The notes below the pieces were generated by a model. The model saw nothing but the letters and a program-made list of their open reading frames with translations. It had not been told where the DNA came from and searched no databases. DNA of 45,816 nt from NCBI GenBank assembly GCA_014860585.1, contig JACZJL010000046.1, positions 1 through 45,816 of the forward strand. Direction: 5' to 3'. The stretch comes from Bacteroidales bacterium. Its GTDB lineage: Bacteria; Bacteroidota; Bacteroidia; Bacteroidales; 4484-276. Of the stretch, positions 8,358-45,816 are shown one piece after another (position 1 is the first letter of the stretch; each line of letters starts with the position of its first letter). The position numbers and the translations under genes were made by a program.

Positions 8358-8452
8358 TAGAGGAGATATACAATTTGTAAAGGCCGGGTTTTGCTTTTTC
8401 AGGGTTTCAGTTTTGAGTTGGACGTTGGGCGTTTGGCGTTGGACGTTTGGCG
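8358..8452. repeat. Dispersed leader repeat, copy C, followed by 5 heptamers
   Basis: Positions 8358-8417, just upstream of the AlbA_2 gene, match 10405-10468 nearly base for base (tacaatttgtaaag, ccgggttttgctttttcag, ggtttcagttttgag). Positions 8418-8452 are five in-phase heptamers: TTGGACG, TTGGGCG, TTTGGCG, TTGGACG, TTTGGCG. The array ends exactly at the stop codon (8455-8453) of the interrupted four-helix-bundle gene. Confidence 0.85.
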
Positions 8453-8649
8453 TTAATCGCTGAATCTTGGTCCTTTTAGGTTTGATTTTTTGAGGTATTG
8501 TATGAAGTTGCTGATTTTCTTTGAAATTTTATCGGTTTGCTCGAGTAGCTCATTCAGTTTATCATGGTTTATGTAATTGAAATCGAAAACTCTGTAAGAT
8601 TGTGATCTTACCTCGTCATTTGAGCCTTTTGCAATGGAAAGAAAATTGA

Positions 8650-8707
8650 TTCACCCTGTGAAATAATGCTTCGCATTAAAATCTCTGATTTTATTTTACA
8701 GGGTGAA
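8650..8707. repeat. 58-nt sequence folding as a complete three-way junction
   Basis: The block divides with no base left over into an outer 15-bp stem (ttcaccctgtgaaat at 8650-8664 with attttacagggtgaa at 8693-8707, one G-T wobble), a hairpin aatgc-ttc-gcatt (8665-8677) and a hairpin aaaatc-tct-gatttt (8678-8692). The outer stem extends by at least one more pair (8649/8708). It could form in single-stranded DNA or RNA. It marks one junction of the insertion in the four-helix-bundle gene. Confidence 0.85.
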
Positions 8708-8740
8708 TTCCCGATTACCCCCTCTGCCAAAACCCTCGGT

Positions 8741-9004
8741 CTAACCTGTAAAATACGATTTGAGACGGTTTTTTAGAAACATTTTTCCATAATGAGTTTT
8801 GAAATATTTCTCTCTTTTTAAAGCGTCTGCCTGCGATAGGCATGCTTCAAAGTAAATAAGTTTAAGTGGTCTTCTATCTTTTGTTGATTCTACTAATCCT
8901 TTAACATGCTGCTCAAATCGTAAATTCAAATCTTTTGTATAGCCAGTATACTTGTTACCATCTTTTTCGCTTTCGAGAATGTATGTGAAATAAAAACTTT
9001 CCAT
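8741..9004 (-). CDS. GIY-YIG nuclease superfamily protein (UvrC N-terminal domain-like)
   Basis: An 87-residue single-domain protein. FYFTYILESEKDGNKYTGYTKDL is the signature, with Y-x-Y/I-L and Y-T-G-Y in place of GIY...YIG. It is followed by LRFEQHVKGLVESTKDRRPLKLIYFEAC and DALKREKYFKTHYGKMFLKNRLKSYF, matching the YhbQ-like branch. I start it at the ATG at 9004, because the longer frame (9031) only adds repeat-derived residues. Its last codons (Y-F-T-G) are encoded by the inverted repeat 8744-8755, and the mate repeat (9017-9028) is 12 bp ahead of the start. Members usually cut DNA, with catalytic Tyr, Arg and Glu; the substrate here is unknown. Confidence 0.88.
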   Translation of the reverse strand: MESFYFTYILESEKDGNKYTGYTKDLNLRFEQHVKGLVESTKDRRPLKLIYFEACLSQADALKREKYFKTHYGKMFLKNRLKSYFTG

Positions 9005-9215
9005 AAGATTTGAATTTATTTTACAGGTCAAGTGTTGTCCATCACTGAGCCTGCTGCATCTCTTATCTGATCTCTAAATTTGTAATCTTTTGAAAATGGT
9101 TCAATACTCGTAATTTCATAAACCATTTTGGACAATGCCCTTGTTTCCTGCCAAATTTCCAACTCCTCAAATTTTTTGATCTTCATTCCACTTTCTCTGT
9201 TAATTCAATCCTTCT

Positions 9216-9250
9216 GAGCCAAAACATCTAACGCCCAACGTCAAACATTA
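9216..9250. repeat. Heptamer array, 5 units (AACGCCC-type)
   Basis: Five words in phase: GAGCCAA, AACATCT, AACGCCC, AACGTCA, AACATTA. As reverse complement these are TGACGTT/GGGCGTT words, the same family as 8418-8452 but inverted. The array overlaps the last codons and stop of the LegB-like remnant (9241-9243). Confidence 0.7.
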
Positions 9251-45727: not shown

Positions 45728-45737
45728 ATTGACGTTG

Positions 45738-45816
45738 TGGAGATGCCGGGAGTCGAACCCGGGTCCAAACAAGCAGCACTAATGCTTTCTACATGTTTAG
45801 TTCTTCATTGATTTTT
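45738..45816 (-). ncRNA. ssrA: tmRNA, 3' part (cut by the window edge)
   Basis: The minus strand ends ...GGACCCGGGTTCGACTCCCG and GCATCTCCA, the T-arm and acceptor of tmRNA, preceded by AACTAAACATGTAGAAAGC, a block conserved in bacterial tmRNAs. tmRNA rescues stalled ribosomes and tags their products for degradation. The tag-coding region and 5' end lie beyond 45816. CCA does not appear to be encoded after the discriminator A. Confidence 0.93.

Follow-up and report, generated by a model that had tools for sequence, protein, structure and literature searches.

GIY-YIG nuclease genes with hairpin-forming ends, together with enzyme-less copies of the same kind, look like a previously undescribed type of small mobile DNA. 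They probably make up a family of very small mobile elements with two forms, an autonomous GIY-YIG gene unit and a gene-less hairpin unit, whose spread would be partly enzyme-driven and partly by homing. The evidence consists of the anatomy of the units, the covariation of their ends, their copy number, recurrent insertion sites, a near-uniform orientation, spare 5′ copies of the target genes and purifying selection on the nuclease; movement, the role of the enzyme and the steps of cutting and pasting are what we infer from it. To our knowledge, no transposable element of this size has a GIY-YIG enzyme as its only protein.

Results

Two insertions in a four-helix-bundle gene

The DNA analyzed, hereafter called the window, comprises 45,816 nt from a Bacteroidales bacterium (assembly GCA_014860585.1, contig JACZJL010000046.1, positions 1–45,816, forward strand). 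A four-helix-bundle gene (PF05635) runs on its minus strand from 9186 to 8453 and is interrupted twice, first by a 293-bp GIY-YIG element (8740–9032) and then by a 54-nt palindrome (within 8649–8708). The features are as follows:

9033–9186, minus strand: N-terminal half of the four-helix-bundle gene (PF05635 positions 1–45, E = 5e-10)
8740–9032, minus strand: GIY-YIG element of 293 bp, including the outer CTTG and TAGA (homologous layout at loci L017, L019, L021, L026 and L027)
9017–9032, minus strand: upstream terminal repeat, CTTG-ACCTGTAAAATA (inverted-repeat search and comparison of relatives' ends)
8741–9004, minus strand: GIY-YIG nuclease coding sequence, 87 aa from ATG (PF01541, E = 2.1e-16)
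8740–8755, minus strand: downstream terminal repeat, TATTTTACAGGT-TAGA, coding YFTG and the stop (inverted-repeat search and relatives' ends)
8453–8739, minus strand: C-terminal half of the four-helix-bundle gene, interrupted by the palindrome (PF05635 positions 61–105, E = 3.1e-9)
8649–8708, no strand assigned: three-way-junction palindrome with a 16-bp stem and two hairpins with 3-nt loops (fold z −8.2)
8651–8704 (equivalently 8650–8703), no strand assigned: the 54-nt palindromic insert, lying between GAATTC and ATCAATTTT as read on the minus strand (homologues EF[I/V/L/T][Q/N]FL)

An initial annotation, made from the sequence alone, had described a split four-helix-bundle host and a perfect 12-bp inverted repeat reaching into the last codons of the GIY-YIG gene. 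Both were borne out: the two halves match the separate parts of PF05635 listed above, the repeat is present at 8744–8755 and 9017–9028, and its 3′ arm codes YFTG, the last codons of the gene.

Uninterrupted homologues of the host gene occur in relatives. Six were compared, with 45–53% protein identity and an internal stop in one of them, and they read MDN-IA-EGF...[K/R]EF-[I/V/L/T]-[Q/N]FL. By comparison, the GIY-YIG element occupies the position of the expected IA, between the host codons for DN and EG, and since the homologues continue EF-[I/V/L/T]-[Q/N]FL, the palindrome is placed right after the Phe codon (GAATTC/ATCAATTTT). This insertion fits 3′ of TTCA, with no target duplication apparent when judged against homologues of 45–53% identity. 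The empty sites that had been predicted were found only in the form of these homologues of 45–53% identity, which is weak support; neither a near-identical empty allele nor an excision product was seen.

An Rfam scan of the window at the gathering threshold gave a tmRNA as the sole match and no group I or II intron fold, and a group I/II intron was rejected on this basis. The tmRNA gene lies on the minus strand at 45735–45816 and is cut by the window end. Ribosomal bypass of the four-helix-bundle insert, which has its stop right after ACU and a candidate ACN landing codon, was also considered and rejected, because take-off and landing codons mismatch in L017, L030 and L048. Imperfect 24-nt inverted repeats of a word-like type (GTTGGACGTTGGGCGTTTGGCG) flank the host gene at 8417–8440 and 9223–9246, and the four-helix-bundle genes in L017, L019, L030 and L054 have similar word-like repeats to either side.

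The palindrome had been described as a fully paired three-way junction with a 15-bp stem. On the plus strand, all bases are indeed paired except for the two 3-nt loops, but the stem has 16 bp; the hairpins have 5 and 6 bp. The fold energy is −16.5 kcal/mol (z −8.2), and none of 200 shuffles equaled it. The minus strand has one A.C mismatch and folds at −14.9 (z −7.45; 0 of 200 shuffles). The genome of the window holds one palindrome of this design, in the same four-helix-bundle gene as the nuclease copy, and it is alone in holding the strict design among 395 genomes of the phylum; none was found in viral contigs. The same 52-nt design appears at four places in a Cloacimonadota genome, G111, where one palindrome differs from that of the window at 2 of 52 positions.

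The nuclease is taken to start at the ATG (87 aa); an alternative 96-aa open reading frame with a TTG start at the outer edge of the repeat is less likely. A Pfam search matched PF01541 as the sole domain, at residues 14–83 of the 96 aa; NCBIfam gave no match, and no extra DNA-binding domain such as NUMOD was found. The GIY and YIG motifs, central Arg and C-terminal Glu by which the GIY-YIG superfamily is described (PMC1564403) are all present. The nearest solved sequences are the UPF0213 proteins 1zg2 (E = 6.4e-7) and 1ywl (E = 0.0015). The genome has eight PF01541 matches in all, among them one close copy, which is that of the window, and one distant match with 41% identity.

The tttaca/cagg core reported as shared by palindrome and terminal repeats is exact (ATTTTACAGG) at 8693, 8745 and 9018, with ATTTCACAGG at 8655. 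By itself, the shared core is weak evidence because, with up to one mismatch, the window contains 16 matches where 9.35 would be expected, and 2 of 100 shuffles reach 16.

Covarying ends and a conserved nuclease

A scan of genome contigs for relatives of the nuclease, from which the best 80 of 140 were kept, gave loci labeled as Bacteroidota, Cloacimonadota, Elusimicrobiota, Nitrospinota, Fidelibacterota, Myxococcota, Omnitrophota and candidate phyla. Many relatives have inverted repeats near both gene ends, which differ in sequence from one relative to another while staying complementary (CCCTGTG/CACAGGG, CCTATG/CATAGG, CCCTGTC/GACAGGG, CCCAGTG/CACTGGG, CCCTGTT/AACAGGG, CCCCCTG/CAGGGGG). The general end pattern of the nuclease units is mostly YYNR-CCCxGTyzAAT ... 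ATTz′y′ACx′GGG-YNRR. The expectation that GIY-YIG copies would turn up at varying sites was confirmed in several phyla. Their flanks are not unrelated: the terminal repeats covary. Neither the palindrome nor the repeats are unique to this locus.

Across 94 loci, the complementarity of a unit's own two ends averaged 10.8, compared with 8.3 for mismatched pairs of ends and 7.2 for shuffles. Both arms fit the pattern at 42 of 51 loci, the nine without a fitting pair being excluded. Stem position 7 is Watson–Crick in 41 of the 42, with four Watson–Crick pair types (shuffle mean 22.8, maximum 30, 2000 shuffles), a count that is somewhat favored by taking the most complementary pair where several arms fitted and that uses, for L031, a left arm belonging to the adjacent palindrome.

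Covariation of this kind fits RNA as well as DNA. The units might be RNA elements akin to intervening sequences, with paired ends kept for RNase III trimming, as in 23S rRNA, and mobility incidental; GIY-YIG and 23S_rRNA_IVP proteins are both reported from CPR rRNA gene insertions (PMC11270868). We consider this highly improbable, given that, by eye, neither strand of the stems consistently favors G.U over A.C changes and that no rRNA location was recognized among the palindromes looked at.

The nuclease family has kept its catalytic residues and evolves under purifying selection. In an alignment of the window copy with 75 of the 80 loci (five with stops or short matches were omitted), Y19, G21, R29 and E65 are present in 76 of 76 sequences and Y8 in 75, and the median dN/dS is 0.098 (142 usable of 292 pairs). 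Three members (L036, L086, L087) match the N-terminal 30–40 positions of TIGR01453, a group I intron endonuclease model, far under its cut-off. A tree of 84 sequences, from which 10 of the 94 loci were omitted for stops in the translation or location on the other strand, including the window copy L003, shows grouping by target. Its well-supported branches force at least five changes of the epimerase label and at least two of the four-helix-bundle label, in a tree with few columns and many open forks.

Carriage by phages or plasmids was rejected as a general route: viral contigs gave one nuclease relative among four matched stretches, and plasmids gave one record, with 74% coverage and 40% identity. 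At L092, a palindrome (2296–2343) interrupts a GIY-YIG nuclease gene near the conserved EKYxK region.

Gene-less palindromes in other genomes

Palindromes were searched for with a pattern in which CCC, GT and AAT were fixed in the stem and the remainder was free; the reversed pattern served as control. Matches were found in nine of the 39 genomes with the nuclease (G111, 36; G112, 19; G511, 10; G113, 9; G115, 8; G116, 4; G114, 2; G526, 2; G104, 1), the other 30 holding none under the pattern used, while the control matched in one genome of the 39. Fourteen of 98 relatives of the window genome hold palindromes, and none matches the control. Within this set, with the nuclease called at E up to 1e-12, palindromes occur in four of nine genomes with the nuclease and in 10 of 89 without it, a modest association (one-sided Fisher p = 0.022, kinship ignored). 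Gene-less multicopy palindromes had been predicted, and they do exist with the same termini and in up to 36 copies, but in part of the genomes only.

The palindromes were mostly retrieved by the search pattern, and consequently the stem is informative only at the three positions that the pattern leaves free. Among 64 unique palindromes, 62 are paired at position 8 (mean of 2000 shuffles 31.8, maximum 43), position 4 gives a weak signal (37 of 64 paired, 25.8 expected, maximum 36), and position 7 turned out to be uninformative (62 seen, 58.2 expected, maximum 62). When the interiors were folded with RNA energies, 35 had two internal hairpins, 23 had one and six had none. The 19 copies in the Elusimicrobiota genome G112 have very different interiors, and yet 18 of them fold with two internal hairpins, and in 12 of these, by our count, all bases other than those of the loops are paired. 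Palindromes and GIY-YIG elements agree in their commonest outer tetranucleotides, which are TTTA, TTCA or CTTG at the left end and TAAA, TGAA or CAAG at the right end. Stem types can differ within a genome. In G113, three GIY-YIG elements have TCAAAT-type ends, and of seven palindromes found in 674 kb of sequence six have GTTAAAT and one has GTGAAAT, so the stems of enzyme and palindrome need not match.

The presence of palindromes in a genome where the nuclease was not found counts against a role of the enzyme. G011 has 24 palindromes but just two matches to PF01541, the listed one being a 617-aa frame of UvrC size; neither a Y1 match nor a candidate of the window nuclease family was found there. 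G043 has one palindrome, no Y1 match and one PF01541 match, in a 619-aa frame.

Y1 transposases could be the real mobilizer in most genomes, as they were found in 26 of the 30 searched. IS200/IS605 elements insert 3′ of a fixed tetranucleotide with no target duplication, and TnpB cuts empty sites for IS605; the insertions described here, beside a tetranucleotide and with no apparent target duplication, may share that geometry. Y1 transposases of the REP-associated, IS200/IS605-like type might then move all units, with the GIY-YIG protein as a passenger or, like TnpB, a helper that cuts empty sites. Two genomes, G116 and G526, however, hold palindromes and have six and eight PF01541 matches, respectively, but no Y1 match. 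The ends also lack GTAG, the end tag of known REPs (PMC3733652). Moreover, in L034 and, by eye, in L045 and L051 (motif NHFHLLV; the L045 half had no match in Pfam), the gene that the element interrupts or abuts is a Y1 transposase gene. On balance, we think it improbable that Y1 transposases move all units.

Some palindromes in G112 lie between an RBS-like sequence (L194) or a TATAAT-like sequence (L185, L191, L196) and a nearby ATG, which suggests an effect on expression; by eye, the downstream genes include acetate kinase (L194) and topoisomerase I (L196). Another family of repeats occurs in G113, its arms resembling CCC(G/A)CACCAAT ... ATTGGTG(C/T)GGG and lying 55–126 nt apart, often about 85 (L234, L238, L243, L246, L248, L252, L257, L259, L263, L265, L268, L269). 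Some of these repeats adjoin TTTAC- or GGTGAA-type flanks.

Recurrent targets, spare 5′ copies and orientation

The nuclease elements recur at a few conserved gene sites. Four-helix-bundle genes are interrupted at the same position (DN^EG) in the window and in L017, L019, L021, L026, L027, L030, L036, L048 and L054, as called by family models for the window, L021, L026, L027 and L036 and by eye for the others. Epimerase/dehydratase genes are interrupted at GxGF^IG in 13 loci (L020, L024, L031, L032, L035, L039, L052, L056, L060, L061, L062, L068, L080; Pfam was run on L020, L024, L056 and L061). In candidate phyla, 16 loci were classed by eye as tRNA targets; 14 of them have an intact same-strand tRNA within 120 nt downstream of the nuclease, and in 12 of those it is within 50 nt of the nuclease gene end or overlaps it. 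An ORF6N gene (L018) is also interrupted or abutted, as is an FGE-sulfatase-family gene at its 3′ end (L022). Both kinds of unit share one gene in the window and one epimerase site (L024, L031). TTYA fits several of the epimerase sites, while at the four-helix-bundle GIY-YIG site TTG is instead replaced by CTTG...TARA. Much like this last site are tracts in G111, where L166 reads TTCGTG-TTG-TTCGTGGC with no palindrome, and L170 and L164 bear one as TTCGTG-CTTG or CCTG ... TAAA-TTCGTGGC.

A second copy of the 5′ part of the target was found upstream of the element, at a direct-repeat score of 17 or more, in seven of the 13 epimerase loci (L024, L031, L032, L035, L056, L060, L068) and seven of the 16 tRNA loci (L063, L066, L070, L074, L077, L086, L091). 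Further upstream copies were seen by eye or in translation, e.g., in L020. At many epimerase and tRNA sites, the 5′ part of the target is thus present again after the element, where the gene is intact, and a long open frame follows downstream in all 10 epimerase loci checked, of the 13. The epimerase copies are identical at 105 of 106 (L060) or 76 of 78 (L024) positions, down to 54 of 74 (L035). In L063, L066 and L070, both copies of the target 5′ part contain a palindrome. Long target-site duplication is not favored as the source of these second copies, because several of the pairs are far from identical (L035, 54/74; L020, score only 16.6), although that of L024 differs little (76/78).

Among loci with a recognizable target, nuclease and target share a strand in all cases named above; one opposite case was seen, a transposase at L049 recognized by eye.

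Insertion at conserved motifs in this orientation, with spare 5′ copies, is also what would be expected of a free-standing GIY-YIG homing gene spread only by recombination, in which the stems act in RNA, as a terminator or RNase III site, and the palindromes belong to a repeat family that has similar ends but is unrelated. There are signs of repeated insertion in one gene, such as a second GIY-YIG fragment upstream in L020 and direct repeats that include the element's own right end in L056 and L060, and in the nuclease tree, insertion at the epimerase and four-helix-bundle sites is spread over several branches. Homing alone, however, leaves unexplained why gene-less palindromes with the same termini and tetranucleotides occur at unrelated sites, and why both kinds of unit meet in one gene in the window and at one epimerase site. 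Domain searches of the protein, furthermore, gave the catalytic domain alone. We regard homing as the sole process as unlikely.

Discussion

A proposed model for mobility

The constant pairing of the ends and the flanking tetranucleotides, combined with a free interior, indicate recognition of a branched or hairpin structure, and the recurrent conserved sites, near-uniform orientation and spare 5′ copies suggest a homing phase. Slx1, a GIY-YIG enzyme, is described as cutting branched DNA, and with this precedent we propose that the lone enzyme could cut at the base of the stem and paste the unit beside a tetranucleotide. More specifically, though only tentatively, the lone 87-residue nuclease may be a structure-guided transposase that reads its ends by shape and not by sequence, moves itself and its three-way-junction derivatives, and homes to conserved gene sites carrying a replacement gene start.

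In this model, the autonomous form would be a single-domain GIY-YIG gene whose complementary ends pair into one stem around it, and the non-autonomous form would keep the stem, with the gene replaced by short hairpins, often two, to give a three-way junction. The paired ends would form a branch during replication or as extruded DNA, and after cutting at the stem base by the GIY-YIG enzyme, the unit would be pasted beside a short T-rich tetranucleotide of the TTYA or YTTG type, with no target duplication. The enzyme might also cut the uninterrupted site, so that recombination would take an element from a conserved gene to the corresponding site of other strains, with a spare copy of the target's 5′ part carried along. 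A cut recipient gene repaired from the donor allele would keep its own 5′ end upstream and receive the donor 5′ end downstream.

If the enzyme reads structure, the units would represent a natural insertion system of about 290 bp that is guided by shape. They could supply a mobilizer for the palindromic repeats of several uncultured phyla.

Comparison with known systems

Free-standing GIY-YIG homing endonuclease genes include the relatives of I-TevI and the phage Seg genes. The elements described here share with them the catalytic domain, the conserved gene targets and the spread across lineages, but have no second, DNA-binding domain that we could find and have covarying ends, gene-less derivatives and spare 5′ copies. 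The closest solved sequences, the small UPF0213-type GIY-YIG proteins of about 100 aa, are titled hypothetical in the PDB. DDE transposons and MITEs have fixed terminal inverted repeats and a target duplication. The repeats here vary between relatives, and no duplication is apparent at the window palindrome, as far as homologues of 45–53% identity can show.

No description of GIY-YIG genes with such terminal repeats and palindromes was found in the literature searched, which covered no preprints and few subscription journals, in keeping with the annotation, whose author knew of no described system like it. The GIY-YIG genes carried by CPR rRNA gene insertions, reported as not similar to introns, were judged by those authors to lie outside spread by homing (PMC11270868); in a text search of that paper's main text, neither inverted repeats nor palindromes came up. 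Palindromes with no known transposase, some of them inside genes, are also seen in the Rickettsia palindromic elements and the CGTC-tagged REPs (PMC3733652), but no CGTC tag was seen here and a candidate nuclease shares the ends.

The closest likeness drawn at the outset, to REP/REPIN sequences and their RAYT (Y1 HUH) enzymes with a GIY-YIG enzyme in their place, is supported: both have short dispersed palindromes, a single-domain nuclease gene with related ends, and insertion beside a tetranucleotide, a geometry perhaps also common to IS200/IS605. To this analogy we add a homing-endonuclease side, on account of the recurrent target motifs, second 5′ copies and near-uniform orientation. The REP/RAYT enzyme is an HUH nuclease, whereas the gene flanked here is GIY-YIG; the GTAG or CGTC tags are absent, the commonest ends being TTTA, CTTG and TTCA or TAAA and TGAA; and, unlike REPs, the palindromes often form three-way junctions with freely changing hairpins, some copies lying in genes or at their edges. 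Should the enzyme read structure, the REP/RAYT question could also be put to the test in another system, whose enzyme is unrelated.
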